Of a stretch of 64,000 nt of DNA, positions 43,442 through 52,049 are shown piece by piece. Source of the DNA: Aquimarina agarivorans (GTDB lineage Bacteria; Bacteroidota; Bacteroidia; Flavobacteriales; Flavobacteriaceae); contig NZ_AFPB01000177.1 in NCBI RefSeq assembly GCF_000218485.1, forward strand, positions 1 to 64,000. Reading direction: 5' to 3'. The notes under the pieces are model-generated. The model did no database searches. It was given only the letters and a program-made list of their open reading frames with translations, and had not been told where the DNA came from. A program made the translations under genes and the position numbers. How positions within the stretch are numbered: the first letter of the stretch is position 1; every line of letters starts with the position of its first letter.

Positions 43442-43774
43442 ATGGGGTTAACCAAATCAGAAATTTTTACAGATATTCAAAACGAAGTTGCCCTATTTGC
43501 CAAAGTGTTTGCGCATCCGGCGCGAGTAGCCATATTAGAGCAATTATTTAAGATGGATTCCTGTTACTGTGGTAATTTGGTAGATGAAATTGGTTTGGCA
43601 CAACCTACAATCTCTCAGCATTTAAAAGAGTTACGAAACTTAGGACTAATTAAAGGTAATGTTGAAGGAACAAGCGTGTGCTATTGTATTGACACCGAAA
43701 ATTGGGCAAAGATGAAAGATGTTATGTTTCAATTTTTAAATCAAGATAGCGCTAATACAGAAGATTATTGTTAA
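43442..43774 (+). CDS. ArsR-family metalloregulatory repressor
   Basis: 110 residues, winged-helix ArsR/SmtB family. The recognition helix region is GLAQPTISQHLKELRNLGLIKG (51-72). Candidate arsenite-binding cysteines are C41 and C43 (DSCYCGNLV, at the start of the DNA-binding unit, the same place as the CVC of E. coli ArsR) and C80, C82. Arsenite binding would release it from DNA. First gene of arsR-DUF6428-arsC; 48 bp separate it from the DUF6428 gene, in which a second copy of the operator-like sequence lies. Confidence 0.9.
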   Translation: MGLTKSEIFTDIQNEVALFAKVFAHPARVAILEQLFKMDSCYCGNLVDEIGLAQPTISQHLKELRNLGLIKGNVEGTSVCYCIDTENWAKMKDVMFQFLNQDSANTEDYC

Positions 43775-43788
43775 AAAAATTTGAATCC

Positions 43789-43811
43789 ATTAATCGTATA
43801 ATCGCAATAAA
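43789..43811 (+). promoter_or_regulatory. candidate ArsR operator, copy 2
   Basis: Second copy of the 23-bp sequence found ahead of arsR (20 of 23 bases identical), between arsR and the DUF6428 gene, 11 bp ahead of the latter's start. This suggests a second ArsR-controlled promoter inside the ars set. Confidence 0.55.
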
Positions 43812-43822
43812 CAAATATAATT

Positions 43823-44296
43823 ATGAAATTATCACAAGTAAAATCAGAATTAGCGAAATTAAAAACTATAGGTTTTCAGTTACCAAACGGAGAATTGGTA
43901 CCAAGCCATTTTCACGTTACAGAGGTCGGTAAAATCACCAAACATTTTATTGATTGTGGTGGAACGGTAAGAAACGAAGAAGTTGTAAACTTTCAGCTTT
44001 GGAATGCAGACGACTATGACCACAGACTGCACCCAGAAAAACTGTTGAGCATCATCGAGCTTTCTGAAAAGGTTTTGGGAATTGACAATTTAGAAATCGA
44101 AGTAGAATATCAAGCAGATACCATTGGAAAGTTCGGACTTGATTTTGACGGGCATCATTTCTTGCTAACCAACAAACAAACCGACTGTTTGGCTAAAGAC
44201 CAATGTGGCATTCCACAAGAAAAACAAAAAGTGAAAATAGCTGAATTACAAACACAATCAACAAAGAGTTGTGCACCAGGTTCTGGATGTTGCTAA
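43823..44296 (+). CDS. DUF6428 family protein
   Basis: 157 residues, cytoplasmic. A family I know only as a regular companion of ars genes in Bacteroidota. Visible features: GELVPSHFHVTEVGKITKHFIDCGG with two His and a Cys near the N-terminus, WNADDYDHRLHPEKLLSII in the middle, and a cysteine-rich tail CLAKDQCGIPQ and SCAPGSGCC. The tail is likely to bind a thiophilic metal or metalloid. No catalytic motif is apparent. A role in arsenic handling is suggested only by context. 19 bp to arsC. Confidence 0.75.
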   Translation: MKLSQVKSELAKLKTIGFQLPNGELVPSHFHVTEVGKITKHFIDCGGTVRNEEVVNFQLWNADDYDHRLHPEKLLSIIELSEKVLGIDNLEIEVEYQADTIGKFGLDFDGHHFLLTNKQTDCLAKDQCGIPQEKQKVKIAELQTQSTKSCAPGSGCC

Positions 44297-44315
44297 ATGA
44301 ATAAATCTTATAAAA

Positions 44316-44966
44316 ATGATAACAACAAAACCAATTCTGTTTTCAGAAATAGAAAATGTAATTAAAGGATTAAATCCTCAAACAATTACAAGCGAGCGTA
44401 AAGAAGTTTTACAACCGCTAGTGGATTTTATTCAGTCAAAAGTTTCTGAAAACAAAGAAATCCGTATCAATTTCATTTGTACTCACAATTCACGAAGAAG
44501 TCATTTATCGCAAGTTTGGGCTCAAACTATGGCTAATTACTTTAATATTAAAAACGTGTTTTGTTATTCAGGAGGAACAGAGGCAACAGCACTTTTCCCT
44601 ATGGTTGTAGAAACTTTGAAGAACTCAGGTTTTCAAATAAAACCCATTTCAAAAAACGAAAACCCAATTTACAGCATTAAATATGCTGACAATGAACATC
44701 CAGTCATCGGGTTTTCAAAAAAGTTAGATGACGATTTTAACCCAAAATCTGAATTTGCAGCTATTATGACTTGCTCACAGGCTGATGGTGGTTGTCCTTT
44801 CATTGCAGGTGCAGAAAAACGTATTCCAATAACCTTTGAAGACCCAAAAGCATTTGATAATACACCGCAACAAGCAGAAAAATACAATGAAAGAAGTCTG
44901 CAAATTGCTACTGAACTGTTCTACGTTTTTTCTCAAATAAATTCTTTAAAAAAAAAGTATAAGTAA
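44316..44966 (+). CDS. arsenate reductase of the low-molecular-weight phosphatase type
   Basis: 216 residues. The LMW-PTP P-loop CTHNSRRS at 55-62 (C-x5-R, C55 and R61) sits on FICTHNSRRSHLSQVWA, with a later thiol set C153, C160 (MTCSQADGGCPF) and the DP loop FEDPKAF at 175-181. This matches the large LMW-type arsenate reductase-like proteins of Bacteroidota, which reduce As(V) to As(III) through a Cys relay. About 50 residues precede the catalytic domain, as is common in this subgroup. Usually followed by an Acr3 or ArsB efflux gene; none follows here. Confidence 0.82.
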   Translation: MITTKPILFSEIENVIKGLNPQTITSERKEVLQPLVDFIQSKVSENKEIRINFICTHNSRRSHLSQVWAQTMANYFNIKNVFCYSGGTEATALFPMVVETLKNSGFQIKPISKNENPIYSIKYADNEHPVIGFSKKLDDDFNPKSEFAAIMTCSQADGGCPFIAGAEKRIPITFEDPKAFDNTPQQAEKYNERSLQIATELFYVFSQINSLKKKYK

Positions 44967-45380: not shown

Positions 45381-45425
45381 TGTAACTAGAGTTACAGAAT
45401 GTTATTATTTCTAAAAGTACATTTG
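45381..45425 (+). promoter_or_regulatory. Crp/Fnr-type operator plus -7 box ahead of DUF983-crp
   Basis: Perfect palindrome TGTAACT-AG-AGTTACA at 45381-45396 (GTAAC-N4-GTTAC, centre 45388.5), followed by TACATTTG (TAnnTTTG) at 45418-45425. Centre to first base of the box is 29.5 bp, the same as in three other promoters of this island. The gene starts 12 bp after the box. Confidence 0.75.
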
Positions 45426-45436
45426 AAATAAAAAAG

Positions 45437-45817
45437 ATGACATTTTTAAAGAAATTATATAGCATATTAAAATTCAAATGTCCTCGATGTCACGAAGGAG
45501 ATTTTTTAGAAGGCAAGGTTTACCAATTCTCTAAAATGGGAAAGGTCAAAAAAAAATGCTCTCATTGTAATTTAAAATATGAAATAGAAACAGGATTTTT
45601 CTATGGTGCTATGTATGTTTCTTATGCACTAGGTGTTGCTTTAGGAATATCTGTTTGGGTATTACAACTTCTATTTTTGCCTGATGCTTCTCCAATGACA
45701 TTATTTTTGGCTATTGTGCTATCCGTAATTTTATTTTATCCATTATTGTATTCTTTATCAAAAATAATTTGGATAAATTTCTTTGTATCTTATAAAAAAT
45801 CAAACACCTCAAAATGA
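45437..45817 (+). CDS. DUF983 family membrane protein
   Basis: 126 residues. N-terminal zinc-ribbon-like pair CPRC (15-18) and CSHC (41-44), then two membrane segments (about 58-82 and 88-112). This is the DUF983 layout; in some bacteria these small proteins lie near cytochrome oxidase genes, and no molecular function is established. The stop overlaps the start of the Crp/Fnr gene (ATGA), so it is translated with that regulator and is driven by the palindrome-bearing promoter 12 bp upstream. Confidence 0.85.
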   Translation: MTFLKKLYSILKFKCPRCHEGDFLEGKVYQFSKMGKVKKKCSHCNLKYEIETGFFYGAMYVSYALGVALGISVWVLQLLFLPDASPMTLFLAIVLSVILFYPLLYSLSKIIWINFFVSYKKSNTSK

Positions 45818-46450
45818 TTATACCAGAATTAGAGCAACAATATGATTACCTTTTAGAAAAGGAGCTTCTTATAGAAATTTCAAAAATTGGAGTAATAAAA
45901 GAAGTTTCAGAAGGGGTTGAGTTGATGCGAGTGGGTCAGTATATCAAATCAATGCCGCTACTTTTAAATGGAGTTATAAAGATACTGAGAAACGATGAGG
46001 ACGGGGAAGAACTTTTGCTTTACTTTTTAGAAAAAGGAGATACTTGTGCTATGACACTTAATTGTTGTTTGAGAGATACAAAAAGTGAAATAAAAGCGGT
46101 CACAGAAACACCTACAAAACTCATTATGATCCCTGTAGAAAAAATGGAACAGTGGTTAGTGAGATATAAAAGTTGGCGTAATTTTGTACTGAATAGCTAT
46201 CACGGGAGGCTAATGGAAATGCTAACAGCCATAGATGCTGTTGCCTTCAAAAAAAATGGACGAACGTTTGTTAGATTACTTAAAAGAAAAAGCTAAAGTT
46301 ACAGGAAATACAACTTTACAAGCAACTCATCAAGAGATAGCTTTTGATCTACACTCTTCCAGAGTTGTTATTTCTAGACTTTTAAAGGTTTTAGAAAAAG
46401 AAGATGCTATTAAGATTTCAAGAAATAGTATTGAATTGTTAAAGGAATAG
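45814..46450 (+). CDS. Crp/Fnr-family regulator, interrupted by a one-base frameshift
   Basis: The first frame (45814-46296) gives the cyclic-nucleotide-binding-type beta roll and dimer helix; the HTH domain is in the next frame and ends at 46450. The switch lies at a run of eight A at 46249-46256; with seven A the product is a continuous 211-residue regulator whose sequence runs AFKKMDERLLDYLKEKAK. The recognition helix is SSRVVISRLLKVLE, so the Glu that Crp uses (E181) is Val here. No Fe-S cysteine cluster of the Fnr type stands out (Cys in TCAMTLNCCLRD are adjacent in the beta roll and could sense a thiol or metal). It shares the promoter with the DUF983 gene. Either a sequencing error or a genuine loss-of-function/phase change. 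Confidence 0.85.
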
Positions 46451-46453
46451 CTT

Positions 46454-46498
46454 ATGTAACTCATGTTACTGTAAAAGAAGAAACTTCATATTAGTTTT
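46454..46498 (+). promoter_or_regulatory. Crp/Fnr-type operator plus -7 box ahead of sulP
   Basis: GTAAC-TCAT-GTTAC at 46455-46468 (centre 46461.5) with TAGTTTTG (TAnnTTTG) at 46491-46498. Distance from centre to box start is again 29.5 bp. The sulP ATG/GTG start is 22 bp after the box. Confidence 0.75.
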
Positions 46499-46519
46499 GA
46501 TTATTATTTAATACTAATC

Positions 46520-48241
46520 GTGAAATCTTTTACAACATATTTTAATTGGTTAACGACCTATCCTAAGTCAAATTTAAAAGGAGATATAGTTGCAGGTATT
46601 ACTGTTGGAATTTTATTGATTCCGCAGGGTATGGCTTATGCAATAATTGCAGGATTACCTGTAGTTTATGGATTATATGCAGCCATATTTCCGCAAATTA
46701 TATATTTCTTTTTGGGAAGTTCAAAACGATTAGCTGTTGGTCCTGTAGCTTTGGATTCTTTGATAGTAGCAGCTGGTCTTGGCGCTCTAAATCTTGATAC
46801 AACTTTGTATGTGCAAGCAGCCATTTTATTAGCGCTACTCGTAGGGAGTATCCATTTTTTACTTGGAATATTTAAATTAGGTTTTTTAGTCAATTTTTTA
46901 TCAAAACCAGTGATTTCTGGTTTTACATTAGCAGCTGCTATTACTATTGGATTCAGTCAGCTAAAGTATATTCTGGGCACATATCGTATAGATAATAGTA
47001 ATAATCTTAGGCTATTAAATTTTAATACTTTTTGGGAATCAATCCACTTGCCGACCTTTCTTTTAGGTTTCGGAACGCTGTTGTTGTTAGTTTTATTTAA
47101 AAAAATGAATAAAAACATCCCATCGCCCATAATTATAGTGGTTTTAGGACTACTAGTTTCATACTTTTTAAATCTTAAGGAGTTGGGAATTTCAATTATA
47201 GGACATATACCTAGTGGCTTACCTTCTTTTCAATATCCTCAATTATCATATGAATTAGTTTTAAAGTTAATACCAATAGCAATCACCCTCGCTATAATTT
47301 CATATACTGAAGCTATTTCAATAGCAAAAGTTATTGAAGCCAAACACGAAGAAAATGAACTTAAGCCTAATCAAGAGTTAATAGCACTTGGCTTTTTAAA
47401 TATCATAGGCGCTTTCTTTCAATCCTATCCAGTAACAGGAGGTTTATCAAGAACTATTGTAAATGATGACTCAGGAGCGAATTCAAAAATAGCATCATTA
47501 ATTAGTGCTTTTACAGTCGCTATAGTACTTGTTTTTCTAACACCTCTTTTTTACTATTTGCCCAAGGCTATACTAGGAGCGATTATTATTGTTTCTGTAC
47601 TAGGATTGTTAAATTTTAACTATGCCATAGAGTTGTTTAAAAATAGGAAAGATGAATTTCTAGTATTGTTAGTCTCTTTTATTTTTTCCCTTTTTATGGG
47701 AATTAAACAAGGCTTATTATTTGGTGTACTTCTTTCTTTATTATTAATGGTTTATAGAACTTCTAAGCCTCATATTGCTGTTTTAGGCAATGTAAAAGGA
47801 ACACCGTATTTTAAAAATATAACTCGATTTTCAGAACAAATTGACACCCATAATTCGATACTTATTTTACGCTTCGATGCGCAAATTTATTTCGGTAATG
47901 CTGCTTTTTTCAGAAAACAAATTCTAAAAACATTAGAACAACAACAATACACAATTGATACTATTGTATTGAATGCTGAAAGTATAAGTTATATCGATAG
48001 CTCTGGGGTATATATGTTAAAAAGTCTAATCAAAGAGCTGAAAAACAAAGGTGTTAGGCTTGTAGTGTCTAGTGCTATAGGTCCGATTAGAGATATATTC
48101 AACAAAACAGGGTTATTAAATGAAATAGGCTGTGATAACTTATTCATTGATACCCTTGCGGCCTATGAATTTTTAACCAAAAAGAAATTACAAACAGATC
48201 TTCAAAGTAAAATTAGTTTGCAATCTAATAAAAAGAATTAA
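46520..48241 (+). CDS. SulP-family anion permease with STAS domain
   Basis: 573 residues from a GTG. About 12 membrane segments from residue 20 to 405, with the SulP signature GLYAAIFPQIIYFFLGSSKRLAVGP and the NQE...GG-like segment (NELKPNQELIALGFLNIIGAFFQSYPVTGGLSRTIVN). A cytoplasmic STAS domain follows (about 435-555) with the DSSG motif of anti-sigma-antagonist-like folds (ISYIDSSGVYML). The substrate may be sulfate, thiosulfate-type anions or bicarbonate; the neighbours (persulfide dioxygenase-like fusion, YeeE/YedE) favour a sulfur oxyanion. 2 bp to the MBL/rhodanese gene, so one operon. Confidence 0.9.
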   Translation: MKSFTTYFNWLTTYPKSNLKGDIVAGITVGILLIPQGMAYAIIAGLPVVYGLYAAIFPQIIYFFLGSSKRLAVGPVALDSLIVAAGLGALNLDTTLYVQAAILLALLVGSIHFLLGIFKLGFLVNFLSKPVISGFTLAAAITIGFSQLKYILGTYRIDNSNNLRLLNFNTFWESIHLPTFLLGFGTLLLLVLFKKMNKNIPSPIIIVVLGLLVSYFLNLKELGISIIGHIPSGLPSFQYPQLSYELVLKLIPIAITLAIISYTEAISIAKVIEAKHEENELKPNQELIALGFLNIIGAFFQSYPVTGGLSRTIVNDDSGANSKIASLISAFTVAIVLVFLTPLFYYLPKAILGAIIIVSVLGLLNFNYAIELFKNRKDEFLVLLVSFIFSLFMGIKQGLLFGVLLSLLLMVYRTSKPHIAVLGNVKGTPYFKNITRFSEQIDTHNSILILRFDAQIYFGNAAFFRKQILKTLEQQQYTIDTIVLNAESISYIDSSGVYMLKSLIKELKNKGVRLVVSSAIGPIRDIFNKTGLLNEIGCDNLFIDTLAAYEFLTKKKLQTDLQSKISLQSNKKN

Positions 48242-48243
48242 TT

Positions 48244-49653
48244 ATGAAAATAGAACAAATTTATACAGGATGTTTAGCTCAAGGAGCATACTATATCGAA
48301 AGTAAAGGAGAAGTTGCTATTATCGATCCTTTAAGGGAAGTTATTCCTTATTTAGAAAAAGCGAAAGAAAGAAATGCACGTATAAAATATATTTTTGAAA
48401 CACATTTTCATGCCGACTTTGTAAGTGGCCATATTACACTAGCAAAGGAAACAGGGGCACCAATTATCTACGGCCCAAATGCAGAGACGAGTTTTGATGC
48501 TATAATTGCAAAAGATGGTCAAGAGTTTCAACTTGGTGACATAAGCATTACTGCTATACATACTCCAGGGCATACCATGGAAAGTACTTGTTACCTTTTA
48601 AAAGATGCTCAAGGGCAAGATCATGCTTTATTTAGTGGAGATACCTTGTTTCTAGGAGATGTTGGCAGACCCGACTTAGCACAAAAAGGAGCAGATATAA
48701 CACAAGAAGAGCTTGCGGGGATATTGTACGATAGTTTGCGTAACAAAATAATGACTTTAAATGATAATGTTTTGGTATACCCAGCACATGGGGCCGGATC
48801 TGCATGTGGTAAAAATTTAAGTAAAGAAACGGTTGGTACCATCGGTGAGCAAAAGGAAGTCAATTATGCCTTACGTTCAGATATGACTAAAGATGAATTC
48901 ATAGAAGAAGTTACCGATGGTCTATTACCGCCACCTGTTTATTTTCCTGCCAATGTAAAATTAAATAAAGAAGGCTATAAAGATATTAGTGAAGTATTAG
49001 AAACAGGTACCAAAGCATTATCACCTGAAGCTTTTGAACAATTAGCTAATGAAAGTGGAGCTCTAATTTTGGATGTTAGACACCAAGATGAATTTGCTAA
49101 AGGACATATTCCTAATTCAATATTTATTGGCCTCGATGGTAGTTTTGCACCTTGGGCAGGAGCACTTATTGGAGATGTGCAACACCCGATTTTACTAATA
49201 ACAGACGAAGGTCGAGAAGAAGAAGCGGTAACAAGATTATCGCGTGTAGGTTTCGATAATACGTTAGGATATTTAGATGGAGGTTTCTCTGCTTGGCAAC
49301 AAAGTGGAAAAGGATATGATGTAGTATATGGCTGTAGTGCTGATCAGTTAAAATCTTTAATGCCAAACCAACTTGCAATTTTTGATGTTAGAAAAAAAGG
49401 TGAGTTTTTATCGGAAAGAATACCATCAGCAAAACATACTCCTTTAAGTCAAATTAATGACTTTCTAGAAGATTTCCCTAAAGAGAAAACGTTTTACATT
49501 CATTGTGCTGGTGGATACCGAAGTATGATCGCAGCTTCAATTTTAAAAAGTCGTGGCATTCATAATCTAGTAGATGTTAAAGGAGGATTTAAAGCAATCA
49601 AAGAATCTGAAATCGAAACGACAAATTATGTATGTCCTTCAACCACAAAATAA
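48244..49653 (+). CDS. MBL-fold persulfide-dioxygenase-like protein fused to two rhodanese domains
   Basis: 469 residues. N-terminal metallo-beta-lactamase domain with THFHADFVSGH (H54, H56, D58, H63), HTPGHTMES, and SGDTLF-DVGRPD; this is the ETHE1/glyoxalase-II-like layout, which oxidises glutathione persulfide to sulfite. Two rhodanese modules follow. The first (about 262-355) lacks the catalytic Cys: the loop reads LITDEGRE. The second (about 370-460) has it: C421 in HCAGGYRS. The enzyme would oxidise or move sulfane sulfur in the cytoplasm. It lies between the SulP permease and the second Crp/Fnr gene in one operon-like run. Confidence 0.9.
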   Translation: MKIEQIYTGCLAQGAYYIESKGEVAIIDPLREVIPYLEKAKERNARIKYIFETHFHADFVSGHITLAKETGAPIIYGPNAETSFDAIIAKDGQEFQLGDISITAIHTPGHTMESTCYLLKDAQGQDHALFSGDTLFLGDVGRPDLAQKGADITQEELAGILYDSLRNKIMTLNDNVLVYPAHGAGSACGKNLSKETVGTIGEQKEVNYALRSDMTKDEFIEEVTDGLLPPPVYFPANVKLNKEGYKDISEVLETGTKALSPEAFEQLANESGALILDVRHQDEFAKGHIPNSIFIGLDGSFAPWAGALIGDVQHPILLITDEGREEEAVTRLSRVGFDNTLGYLDGGFSAWQQSGKGYDVVYGCSADQLKSLMPNQLAIFDVRKKGEFLSERIPSAKHTPLSQINDFLEDFPKEKTFYIHCAGGYRSMIAASILKSRGIHNLVDVKGGFKAIKESEIETTNYVCPSTTK

Positions 49654-49734
49654 ATTGTACATGAAAAAGTTAGTATGGGCACTTACAATAAAGATTGGTC
49701 ACAATGCTTGGAGAAAAGATCAAAAAATAATAAA

Positions 49735-50367
49735 ATGATAGAAACAGCAATACAAACTAATTTTCCTCAATTGGCTACGATGCCTGACTTAACAAAAGAA
49801 ATAGCAAGTATTAGTTCTATTGTACACCTAGAAAAAGGTACTGTATTTTTAAAAGAAGGGTCTTATGTAAAGGTGATACCGCTATTAGTTCAAGGCCTTG
49901 CTAAAGTTTATAAAGAAGATGAAAATGGGCATGAAGTCTTACTTTATTACATAAAGCCCGGCGAAAGTTGTATAACTTCCGTAACTCTTATGAACAGAAA
50001 CAAAGCTAGTAATGTAAAAGCTATTATCGAAGAAGATGCGAAAGTTGTAGTGATTCCAACAGATAAAGCCATAAAAATTGCTCAGAAATATCCTAAATGG
50101 AATGAGTTTATATATGAATTATTCAGCCATAAATTTTTAGAGCTCATCAATGTCATTAAAGTATTAACATTCTCTAATAAGGATACACGCCTTATGGAAT
50201 ATCTAAAAAAAGCAGTAGCTATAAAAGGGAATAATTCAGTTCAGGCCACTCATCAACAAATTGCCGATGATTTAGGTTCATCAAGAGAAGTTATTTCTAG
50301 ATTACTAAAAAAATTAGAGCATGAAGGTTTAGTAAGACTGCAACAGGGTAGTATCAAACTTTTATGA
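49735..50367 (+). CDS. Crp/Fnr-family transcriptional regulator
   Basis: 210 residues from the ATG of MIETAIQTNFPQL; a start 60 bp upstream is possible but adds a lysine-rich head not typical of the family. Beta-roll ligand domain (about 20-125, with HLEKGTVFLKEGSYVKVIPLLVQGLAKVY), long dimer helix and a winged HTH with ATHQQIADDLGSSREVISRLLKKLE. The recognition helix keeps the usual SRE-xxx-R pattern. No Fnr-type cysteine cluster, so more like Crp or DNR groups; effector unknown. It is 81 bp past the MBL/rhodanese gene (21 bp from the longer start) and is probably its operon partner, and a paralogue of the regulator at 45.8 kb. Confidence 0.9.
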   Translation: MIETAIQTNFPQLATMPDLTKEIASISSIVHLEKGTVFLKEGSYVKVIPLLVQGLAKVYKEDENGHEVLLYYIKPGESCITSVTLMNRNKASNVKAIIEEDAKVVVIPTDKAIKIAQKYPKWNEFIYELFSHKFLELINVIKVLTFSNKDTRLMEYLKKAVAIKGNNSVQATHQQIADDLGSSREVISRLLKKLEHEGLVRLQQGSIKLL

Positions 50368-50395
50368 TTTATTGGCACTGCCAAAGGGTATAATA

Positions 50396-50460
50396 CCCCG
50401 AGGCTTGCCTCAAAATTGAAAGCTTGTTTCAAAAGAATGCCTCGTGGGCTTGCTCCGAGG
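50396..50460. repeat. REP-like multi-hairpin repeat
   Basis: Three small stems follow each other: GAGGC/GCCTC around TT (50400-50411), TTGAAA/TTTCAA around GCTTG (50416-50432), and CCTCG/CGAGG (50440-50460). The flanking GCTTGC motifs repeat. It resembles short intergenic repeats of Flavobacteriaceae, and it also may serve as the terminator of the crp gene. Confidence 0.5.
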
Positions 50461-50510
50461 TAGTTTACTTAGCTTTCTAAATCTAATTAAACTATTTATT
50501 TTTTATCAGT

Positions 50511-50555
50511 TGTAACATTTGTCACATGAATGATTATAAGGCATGCTTAAATTTG
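50511..50555 (+). promoter_or_regulatory. degenerate Crp/Fnr-type operator plus -7 box ahead of the DUF2892 gene
   Basis: GTAAC-ATTT-GTCAC at 50512-50525 (centre 50518.5, one base off the perfect palindrome) with TAAATTTG (TAnnTTTG) at 50548-50555. Centre to box start is 29.5 bp, as in the other three. Confidence 0.65.
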
Positions 50556-50559
50556 AAAT

Positions 50560-50646
50560 ATGAAAATGTACCAAAAGCTTGTGTTAGTATGCATTACTTG
50601 TTTAGCTATTATTACACTTGCAGTATGGTTAATTGAGAAAATTTAA
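50560..50646 (+). CDS. possible 28-residue membrane peptide
   Basis: Small ORF starting MKMYQKLVLVCITCLA with one hydrophobic segment and a charged end (WLIEKI). Its ATG is only 4 bp past the -7 box, so it would be leaderless or nearly so. It lies 21 bp before the DUF2892 gene. Could be a real leader peptide or chance; no family recognised. Confidence 0.4.
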   Translation: MKMYQKLVLVCITCLAIITLAVWLIEKI

Positions 50647-50667
50647 ACATATTAAAATTTATTTATC

Positions 50668-50877
50668 ATGAAAAAGAACATGGGTAATGCTGATCGAATA
50701 ATTAGGATAATTATTGCAGCTATAATTGGAGGCTTATATTGGAAAGGAATTATACCTGGAACATTAGGAATAATACTTATTATTTTAGCAGGAGTATTTG
50801 TTTTAACAAGTTTGATTAGCTTTTGTCCTTTATATACCATTTTTGGACTTAAAACATGTAAAGTAAAAGAAGCCTAA
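50668..50877 (+). CDS. DUF2892 family small membrane protein
   Basis: 69 residues, two membrane helices (about 13-35 and 37-58) with the family start MGNADRIIRIIIAA and the LISFCPLYTIFGLKTC end. DUF2892 domains form the membrane part of YgaP-type rhodaneses and often lie with YeeE/YedE or rhodanese genes, in line with a sulfur-related role here. Two cysteines near the C-terminus (CPLY and TCKVKE) could carry sulfane sulfur. A terminator follows directly. Confidence 0.88.
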   Translation: MKKNMGNADRIIRIIIAAIIGGLYWKGIIPGTLGIILIILAGVFVLTSLISFCPLYTIFGLKTCKVKEA

Positions 50878-50893
50878 ATCTCTATTTCTTATA

Positions 50894-50927
50894 CTAAAAA
50901 AGGGTTTGTAAAAAGACCCTTTTTTAG
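50894..50927 (+). terminator. intrinsic terminator after the DUF2892 gene
   Basis: Perfect 12-bp stem CTAAAAAAGGGT/ACCCTTTTTTAG (50894-50905, 50916-50927) with a 10-nt loop. Confidence 0.85.
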
Positions 50928-51022
50928 CTTCAAATTTATTTAGAAACGACTGATTTCTTTTTTTGAAAATTATCAATATTACATGAAAAATATAGGAGGA
51001 TTTCTTCCTAAAATATAGCTTA

Positions 51023-51067
51023 TGTAACCTAAGTTACTTGAAATAATACCATAAAAATATTTCTTTG
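51023..51067 (+). promoter_or_regulatory. Crp/Fnr-type operator plus -7 box ahead of the YeeE/YedE pair
   Basis: GTAAC-CTAA-GTTAC at 51024-51037 (centre 51030.5), followed by TTTCTTTG at 51060-51067, which differs from TAnnTTTG in one base. Distance 29.5 bp. The box covers an upstream TTG that would otherwise be read as the start of the YeeE gene, so translation most likely begins at the ATG at 51080. Confidence 0.65.
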
Positions 51068-51079
51068 AAAAAAAATAAA

Positions 51080-51634
51080 ATGGATTTGATTTACAACTCA
51101 TGGGCATGGTATGTAAGTGGGCCTATACTAGCCTTAGTGATGTTTCTCTTGTTAAAAGTAGGTAAAACCTTTGGAATGTCTTCTAACCTGAGAACGCTTT
51201 GTACTATATGTGGGGCAGGAAACAACACATCGTTTTTTAATTTTGATTGGAAAACTCAAAAATGGAACTTGATTGTAGTGATCGGTGCTATAATAGGTGG
51301 AGCTATTGCTTCTAATTTTTTAACTACAGATCAAAGTGTAGATATTTCTGAAAAAACTATAGATAGTTTACAGGCACTTGGGTTTTCTGATGCTGGAAAA
51401 ACTTACGTTCCAAACCTATTATTCGATTTATCAGACATTTCTTATAGATCACTCGCAGTACTATTGCTAGGCGGTCTTTTAGTTGGTTTTGGAGCTAGGT
51501 ATGCGGGTGGATGTACCTCTGGGCACGCTATATCGGGGTTAAGTAATCTTCAATTAGCTTCTTTAATCGCTGTAGCGGGTTTTTTTGTTGGAGGTTTAAT
51601 TATGACCCATTTGTTGTTCCCTTTAATTTTTTAG
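51080..51634 (+). CDS. YeeE/YedE family transporter half, large subunit
   Basis: 184 residues from MDLIYNSWAWYVSGP. Five or so membrane segments. Two family signatures: TLCTICGAGNNTSFFNF (cysteines in the first loop) and GFGARYAGGCTSGHAISGLSNLQL near the C-terminus. YeeE/YedE proteins include TsuA, a thiosulfate importer with pore-lining Cys; here the channel is split into two proteins. Expected to bring thiosulfate or another sulfane-type anion through the inner membrane. The partner gene starts 1 bp after the stop codon. Confidence 0.88.
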   Translation: MDLIYNSWAWYVSGPILALVMFLLLKVGKTFGMSSNLRTLCTICGAGNNTSFFNFDWKTQKWNLIVVIGAIIGGAIASNFLTTDQSVDISEKTIDSLQALGFSDAGKTYVPNLLFDLSDISYRSLAVLLLGGLLVGFGARYAGGCTSGHAISGLSNLQLASLIAVAGFFVGGLIMTHLLFPLIF

Positions 51635-51635
51635 T

Positions 51636-52049
51636 ATGAAAACACTTAGTTACTTAGGAATTGGTATCCTGTTTGGTATCACCATGTTTAAATCAGAGGC
51701 AGCTTCTTGGTTTAGGGTTTATGAAATGTTTCGTTTTGATGCTTTTCATATGTACGGGATCATTGGCTCTGCTTTGATTATAGGGATTTTAATGATACAA
51801 TGGATTAAGAAAAAAAATATAAACACGCTTGATGGATCCGCTATTTATATTGAAGATAAACAAAAGGGAATTAAACGCTATTTATTTGGAGGCATCATTT
51901 TTGGTTTGGGATGGGCTCTAGCAGGAGCTTGTCCAGGACCTATGTTTACTCTTTTAGGGGCGGGTTATTTAGGCATTGGTATTGTAATCGTTGGCGCATT
52001 GCTTGGTACCTATTTATATGGTATTTTAAGAGATAAATTGCCTCATTGA
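51636..52049 (+). CDS. YeeE/YedE family transporter half, small subunit (DUF6691-like)
   Basis: 137 residues with four membrane segments. Signature GLGWALAGACPGPMFTLLGAG near residue 100, the counterpart of the GCTSGH motif of the other half; a Cys lies in the pore-facing CPGP loop. With the previous gene it makes up the two-part YeeE/YedE system. Last gene of the island-like sulfur set; the next gene is on the other strand. Confidence 0.87.
   Translation: MKTLSYLGIGILFGITMFKSEAASWFRVYEMFRFDAFHMYGIIGSALIIGILMIQWIKKKNINTLDGSAIYIEDKQKGIKRYLFGGIIFGLGWALAGACPGPMFTLLGAGYLGIGIVIVGALLGTYLYGILRDKLPH

Follow-up and report, generated by a model that had tools for sequence, protein, structure and literature searches.

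The CRP protein of Escherichia coli recognises GTGA within a TGTNA-N6-TNACA frame, and at class II promoters it is centred at -41.5. In the promoters of NtcA, as given in parts of PMC3898017, the GTA-N8-TAC site is also centred near -41.5, and at ilvG it lies 22 nt from the -10 box. The sulfide responses of other bacteria, in the sections of PMC7315123 drawn on here, comprise persulfide dioxygenase (PDO), SQR, TauE, YeeE/YedE and CydAB. According to parts of PMC9774590, the known reactive-sulfur sensors use cysteine pairs or triads, and FisR, an activator, has three cysteines that are conserved (also PMC7315123, in part). Here we describe an island in a 64,000-nucleotide stretch of Aquimarina agarivorans DNA (contig NZ_AFPB01000177.1, positions 1 to 64,000; hereafter the window), in which four promoters share a GTAAC-N4-GTTAC palindrome at one fixed distance from a TAnnTTTG box. 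We consider it quite probable that these palindromes are class II operators of a sulfur regulon, with a CRP/FNR protein that we call Crp1 as the most likely activator and its paralogue Crp2 acting at a variant site.

All operators, boxes and genes of the island lie on the + strand. Operator 1 (45382-45395, GTAACTAGAGTTAC) precedes DUF983-crp1, operator 2 (46456-46469, GTAACTCATGTTAC) lies directly past the 3' end of crp1, and these two and operator 4 (51024-51037, GTAACCTAAGTTAC) are perfect GTAAC-N4-GTTAC palindromes. Operator 3 (50512-50525, GTAACATTTGTCAC) has a single change that gives GTAAC-N4-GTCAC, a variant half-site that recurs elsewhere, so the three perfect and one altered palindromes reported in the first-pass annotation are indeed in the sequence. 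The corresponding -7 boxes are found at 45418-45425 (TACATTTG), 46492-46499 (TAGTTTTG), 50548-50555 (TAAATTTG) and 51060-51067 (TTTCTTTG), the last in a TTnnTTTG form. In 4/4 window promoters the operator centre is 29.5 bp from the first base of the box, i.e. the spacer is 22 bp. The fixed distance claimed earlier holds, with a correction to the second pair, which had been placed 1 bp off (46461.5 and 46491) and has its centre at 46462.5 and its box start at 46492; the spacing is the same.

Bacteroidota promoters usually have a TTG near -33. In F. psychrophilum, mapped transcription starts put TAnnTTTG at -12 to -5 (PMC9723704, in part), and on that basis the box of operator 1 is predicted at -12 to -5; a box that starts at -12 puts the operator centre at -41.5. 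For operator 3, the predicted +1 is the A of the next ATG. A word search of the main text of PMC9723704 found no occurrence of Crp, Fnr or GTTAC. An operator 22 bp ahead of the box and centred at -41.5 is the layout of class II CRP and NtcA promoters, and the class II placement first suggested for these sites fits both the mapped flavobacterial box position and the recurrence of the promoter in other genomes. The comparison supports a reading of the four sites as class II operators for an activator of the CRP/FNR family. Its dimer, centred at -41.5, would take the place of the -33 element and bring RNA polymerase to TAnnTTTG, the -7 box of Bacteroidota, 22 bp beyond the site.

In the window, TAnnTTTG occurs at a rate of 9.06e-4 per position and strand, and the palindrome with at most one mismatch is found at seven places, and around the three outside the island neither strand has a TAnnTTTG within a spacer of about 53. 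By chance, 3 of the 14 oriented palindromes would be expected to have the box at one common offset (0-60) in 1.7e-5 cases. A chance origin is ruled out by this expectation, by the promoter search of the genome itself and by the peak at spacer 22 in 80 related loci. In the 4.07 Mb genome, the palindrome followed by 22 N and the box occurs, at 0-1 mismatch, only at these four places, so that the recognisable regulon of this genome is this island; at up to three mismatches the full promoter is at background level (83 vs 101 in the control). The palindrome alone, with at most one mismatch, is not enriched in the genome (183 vs 226 in the reversed control), and was dropped as a genome-wide marker. 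The first-pass annotation would have been refuted by a palindrome equally frequent in random intergenic regions with no bias in spacing; in its own genome the palindrome alone is not enriched over the reversed control, and the spacing bias is strong.

As that annotation had anticipated, a search of family genomes for motif plus box returned recurring matches ahead of similar kinds of gene. GTAAC-N4-GTTAC followed by TAnnTTTG 12-32 bp on was found in 291/397 Flavobacteriaceae genomes, and among the 150 matches listed the spacer is 22 in 123, 21 in 11, 23 in 5 and another value in 11 (tallied by hand; the control columns were mostly 0 and were not summed). We then have a sample of 80 loci (1.53 Mb) fetched by similarity to the protein with metallo-β-lactamase (MBL) and rhodanese domains, not by the motif, which are the best 80 of 581. 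They contain 150 perfect palindromes vs 7 in the reversed control, with 79 exact TAnnTTTG boxes at spacer 22; elsewhere in the range 0-52 no single value collects more than 5. A box at 22 also follows 34 of the 91 one-mismatch palindromes, the biggest pile of the control being 6, at spacer 30. Looser rules gave 195 sites in 71/80 loci, and the consensus over the 187 spacer-22 sites is T-GTAAC-N4-GTTAC with a sharp -7 box; a TTG beginning at -36 to -32 is present in 7/187.

The first genes behind the 195 sites encode MBL-rhodanese or rhodanese proteins (67), TauE (29), SulP (14), YeeE (13), DUF2892 (12), DUF983 (6), Crp1 (5), SQR-like (5) and sulfite-oxidase-like proteins (5), CydA (3) and cytochrome c / Tll0287-like proteins (3). 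The remainder are pairs (peroxiredoxin, HMA and one unknown) and 7 singletons, besides 3 sites without an open reading frame (ORF) and some groups considered further below. Group names come from similarity to proteins of the window or from a Pfam search with a single member of each group, and the SQR-like label was read from a Pyr_redox_2 protein that matches FCSD_central weakly. Since the loci were picked by their MBL-rhodanese gene, the share of sulfur genes among the targets is inflated; in loci found by the motif only, sites also precede SulP, TauE, rhodanese, peroxiredoxin and TolC-like proteins (by eye). The same kind of promoter precedes the same kinds of gene in other genomes, which supports the proposed sulfur regulon and also its assignment to a Crp/Fnr regulator. 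As a pattern in the sequences, a CRP-type class II sulfide / sulfane-sulfur regulon widespread in Flavobacteriaceae is well supported. Its products would serve persulfide oxidation (MBL-rhodanese) and sulfite/thiosulfate transport (TauE, SulP and the YeeE pairs), together with DUF2892.

Two Crp/Fnr regulators had been counted in the set, and both are encoded; they are not equivalent, and crp1 is frameshifted in the assembly. The crp1 gene (45814-46450) is read as two ORFs (45814-46296 and 46235-46450) with a TC-x5-CC stretch and an SRVVISR helix, and crp2 (49675-50367) has an SREVISR helix and no CC motif. Crp2 matches PF00027 and PF13545 above cut-off, as expected of the CRP/FNR superfamily, and for Crp1 these matches are divided between its two ORFs. 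Full-length Crp1, found in 58/80 loci, is a syntenic, three-cysteine, valine-type regulator: the position of CRP Glu181 is Val in 57/58. Glu72 and Arg82 form part of the phosphate-binding cassette of the CRP cyclic AMP (cAMP) pocket. In the Crp1 profile these positions correspond to Met and Lys, and the stretch aligned with that cassette holds C-x5-CC, a motif present in 74/79 Val-type and 1/26 Glu-type Crps, the one being that of locus L139. The cAMP-CRP equivalog NF008732 scores 23.7 bits with the first ORF of Crp1 and 49.1 with Crp2 (cut-off 266), the Fnr model 30.9 bits with Crp2 (cut-off 228), and the NtcA equivalog TIGR03697 21.9-30.9 bits vs a cut-off of 244.95. A structure prediction for Crp1 of L075 (mean predicted local distance difference test 88.2, predicted template modelling score 0.65), with a PDB search, confirmed the CRP fold and no more.

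Several observations connect Crp1 with the sites. Its model scores above 320 bits in 34/38 motif-rich genomes vs 7/40 genomes without an exact match (Fisher p 6e-11), both sets being hand-picked and the 320-bit line set after seeing the scores, in the gap 301-321. In 11 genomes where Crp1 scores lower, its surroundings were compared: YeeE, TauE and MBL-rhodanese genes are all in view next to it in 9/11, and at least the YeeE pair with one of TauE or MBL-rhodanese in 10/11; in these loci (L165-L175) several sites are partly degenerate, and G047 (L174), on a short contig, has only YeeE. In a sample of the phylum, a Crp1 match at E 1e-70 or better was found in 20/158 genomes. Around Val-type crp genes, 28/36 sites are no more than 50 bp from the crp 3' end, before the next gene; directly upstream, a site is found for 5/60 crp1 and 5/8 DUF983 genes. 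Crp1 is most likely the regulator, judging from these comparisons, and would be an activator that probably drives its own operon, DUF983-crp1, and the sulP-MBL-rhodanese-crp2 operon. Its cysteines are conserved and potentially reactive, as in sulfane-sulfur sensors, and we hypothesize that Crp1 senses reactive sulfur through the C-x5-CC triad that replaces the cAMP cassette.

A respiratory or redox regulon of Crp/Fnr type, responding to oxygen, nitric oxide or peroxide and including the sulfur genes by happenstance, would account for CydA, the cytochrome c / Tll0287-like proteins and peroxiredoxin among the targets. We regard it as unlikely: sulfur genes predominate in the 195 sites, albeit with a share inflated by the choice of loci, and the regulators have no Fe-S cysteine signature of the FNR kind, a Cys among the first 40 residues occurring in 7/79 Val-type and 10/26 Glu-type Crps. 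Moreover, CydAB is itself part of a known sulfide response, according to the part of PMC7315123 used here.

In classical CRP work, G is less strictly required when a residue other than Glu stands at the place of Glu181. Crp2 is the glutamate-type paralogue, with Glu at this position, and is found in few loci: close Crp2 proteins are encoded in the window and in L075, L076, L104, L123 and L184, and a more distant one in L193. The sites within 400 bp of Val-type crp genes are GTAAC/GTTAC in 36/36, and the 16 sites next to Glu-type crp genes comprise 10 GTGAC-GTCAC, 4 mixed, 1 GTAAC-GTTAC (L139) and 1 other, so that at least one GTGAC/GTCAC half is present in 14/16; the same search at ten control spacers gave 1 site altogether. 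GTGAC-N4-GTCAC with TAnnTTTG occurs in 24/120 genomes, with spacer 22 in 28/32 matches listed. At DUF2892 promoters, GTCAC was found in 5/5 Crp2 loci; the window and all the close-Crp2 loci named above have it, and L193 has no such site. G177, a genome of the same genus with Crp2 and no Crp1 match, also has GTAAC-N4-GTCAC at its DUF2892 promoter. Among 15 DUF2892 genes without Crp2, 10 have sites, all with GTTAC, and 5 are siteless. The idea that operator 3 is a decayed copy was rejected, since GTCAC recurs at the DUF2892 promoters of close-Crp2 loci; Crp2 probably acts at this variant, ahead of a small peptide and DUF2892. More tentatively, and with slightly less confidence than an even call would deserve, we propose that Crp1 is a reactive-sulfur-sensing CRP/FNR activator of a sulfur regulon across much of Flavobacteriaceae, in which a change from Glu to Val in its recognition helix moved it from GTGA to GTAA sites and insulated it from Crp2-like paralogues.

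A number of observations weigh against these proposals. In the window assembly, crp1 is frameshifted at an A-run near 46250, so the proposed main regulator may be non-functional in this genome, unless the assembly is in error; the frameshift may be an assembly error, a recent loss or slippage. The window operators themselves are intact, and relatives carry an unbroken crp1, among them G351, which belongs to the same genus. Operator 4, alone among the window promoters, has a TTG, at -34 to -32. In the 80 loci the one-mismatch palindrome is not enriched (91 vs 104 in the control), and 9/80 have no site at all. Less plainly sulfur-related first genes are those for TolC (6), fatty-acid-hydroxylase-like proteins (6) and RuvB (5, in L138 and L148-L151, where the ORF was chosen mechanically). 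No site lies directly upstream of 55/60 crp1 genes, and only 50/106 crp genes (35/80 Val, 15/26 Glu) have one within 400 bp. G177 has no Crp1 match at E 1e-20, only Crp2, and its MBL-rhodanese promoter keeps GTAAC-N4-GTTAC with spacer 22 (TAAATTTA), which suggests that Crp2 may also act at sites of this form. The Crp1 of L139 carries Glu, yet its sites are GTAAC, G019 and G072 have a GTGAC-N4-GTCAC MBL-rhodanese promoter beside a Val-type crp, and there are five further MBL-rhodanese promoters of this form, counted irrespective of the neighbouring crp. Mapped on the tree, the residue has 3 changes and the site has one, giving 1-2 independent pairs, too few for statistics on the Glu/Val code, which rests on about one evolutionary event. 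A strict code was not accepted in view of L139, the G019 and G072 promoters, G177 and the small number of evolutionary events, and L193 also speaks against a simple one.

The intact crp2 beside a frameshifted crp1, and the retention of both the GTAAC-N4-GTTAC and the DUF2892 site in the Crp2-only G177, would suit a scheme in which Crp2, or another Glu-type Crp with its gene elsewhere, rules all four sites, Crp1 being incidental or lost here. We find this improbable, given that close Crp2 orthologues occur in few loci and sites in 71/80, that strong Crp1 scores accompany the motif-rich genomes, and that Glu-type Crps mostly adjoin GTGAC/GTCAC halves. Repressor sites usually vary in position. 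It is very unlikely that the palindromes are repressor operators, as the constant -41.5 placement and the rare -33 TTG (7/187) suit an activator, although repression is common among sulfur-responsive regulators elsewhere (CstR, SqrR and BigR, in parts of PMC9774590).

The island encodes, besides the two regulators, a DUF983 protein (45437-45817; PF06170, 27.4 bits, cut-off 22.6), a SulP-family anion permease with a STAS domain (46520-48241; TIGR00815, 467.7 bits, cut-off 380.45), and a protein of the persulfide dioxygenase / sulfurtransferase type with an MBL fold and two rhodanese stretches (48244-49653; PF00753, PF00581). A 28-residue hydrophobic peptide with C-x2-C (50560-50646), like similar peptides ahead of other DUF2892 genes, precedes the DUF2892 / YgaP-like transmembrane protein (50668-50877; PF11127, 76.7 bits); it starts at the predicted +1, i.e. 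it would be leaderless, and is probably a single-pass membrane peptide. Peptides of 28-36 residues with VC-x2-C stand ahead of 16/38 DUF2892 genes examined. The last genes are the YeeE/YedE half 1 (51065-51634, likely start ATG 51080; Sulf_transp, PF04143), which scores 37.9 bits with the TsuA model, under the cut-off of 400, and half 2 (51636-52049; DUF6691 / Sulf_transp). TTnnTTTG, the recurrent form seen in the box of operator 4, replaces TAnnTTTG in about half of 16 site-bearing yeeE promoters (window, L075, L076, L079, L085, L107, L118, L119 and L095), and perhaps makes a tighter, more activator-dependent promoter.

Just upstream, 43442-44966 holds an ArsR-like gene and two more, the last resembling arsenate-reductase-type phosphatases (by eye), and no palindrome with at most one mismatch. 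Between 44985 and 45190 there are imperfect inverted repeats (outer TAACCTGAGTTC / GAACTCAGGTTA, inner CCTTGTAG repeat; by eye), which look like a small non-coding element. Elsewhere, GTGAC-N4-GTCAC promoters with spacer 21-22 stand in front of genes for a small protein family of FIE-LCENKDKPELQCNGKC-like sequence in L207, L217, L222, L224, L228, L231, L233 and L234, the last also having an SCO1-like gene (by eye); this is possibly a separate Crp regulon for copper or oxidase assembly.

Flavobacteriaceae are common marine heterotrophs, and the present comparison offers concrete regulator and operator candidates for their handling of sulfide and sulfane sulfur, together with a promoter grammar (operator, 22 bp, TAnnTTTG) by which further CRP regulons of Bacteroidota can be recognised in sequence, and what may be a natural example of altered CRP specificity between paralogues. 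The open-access literature, as far as it was covered, yielded neither the GTAAC-N4-GTTAC motif nor a CRP-family sulfur regulon in Bacteroidota, which is not proof of absence, and in the review PMC9774590, 'Crp' occurs twice, both times in the reference list. The CRP/FNR class II layout is known, and a sulfur-control circuit of this kind seems undescribed so far.

In layout the sites resemble those of NtcA, a member of the CRP superfamily whose residue at the place of CRP Glu181 is likewise Val: GTA-N8-TAC lies within GTAAC-N4-GTTAC, the centre is near -41.5 and the box 22 nt away, whereas NtcA controls nitrogen genes, responds to 2-oxoglutarate and uses a -10 box TAN3T. With E. coli CRP at class II promoters the window sites share the fold of the regulator, the TGTNA-N6-TNACA frame and the -41.5 position, but GTAA is found here in place of GTGA. 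The Crp of Acinetobacter baumannii differs in being close to E. coli Crp, and the reported regulators of the sulfide operons there are FisR and BigR, not Crp. In Hyphomicrobium, YeeE-like importers (SoxT) are likewise linked to a sulfur regulon, but sHdrR and SoxR are ArsR-type repressors (PMC11582611 and PMC12423496, each in part). CstR, SqrR/BigR and FisR have similar targets (PDO, SQR, TauE, YeeE/YedE) and multi-cysteine sensing, in the sections of PMC9774590 and PMC7315123 drawn on above, and they belong to other protein families and use other DNA sites. If our reading is true, a CRP-family activator would join the known sulfur sensors, all of which come from other families.

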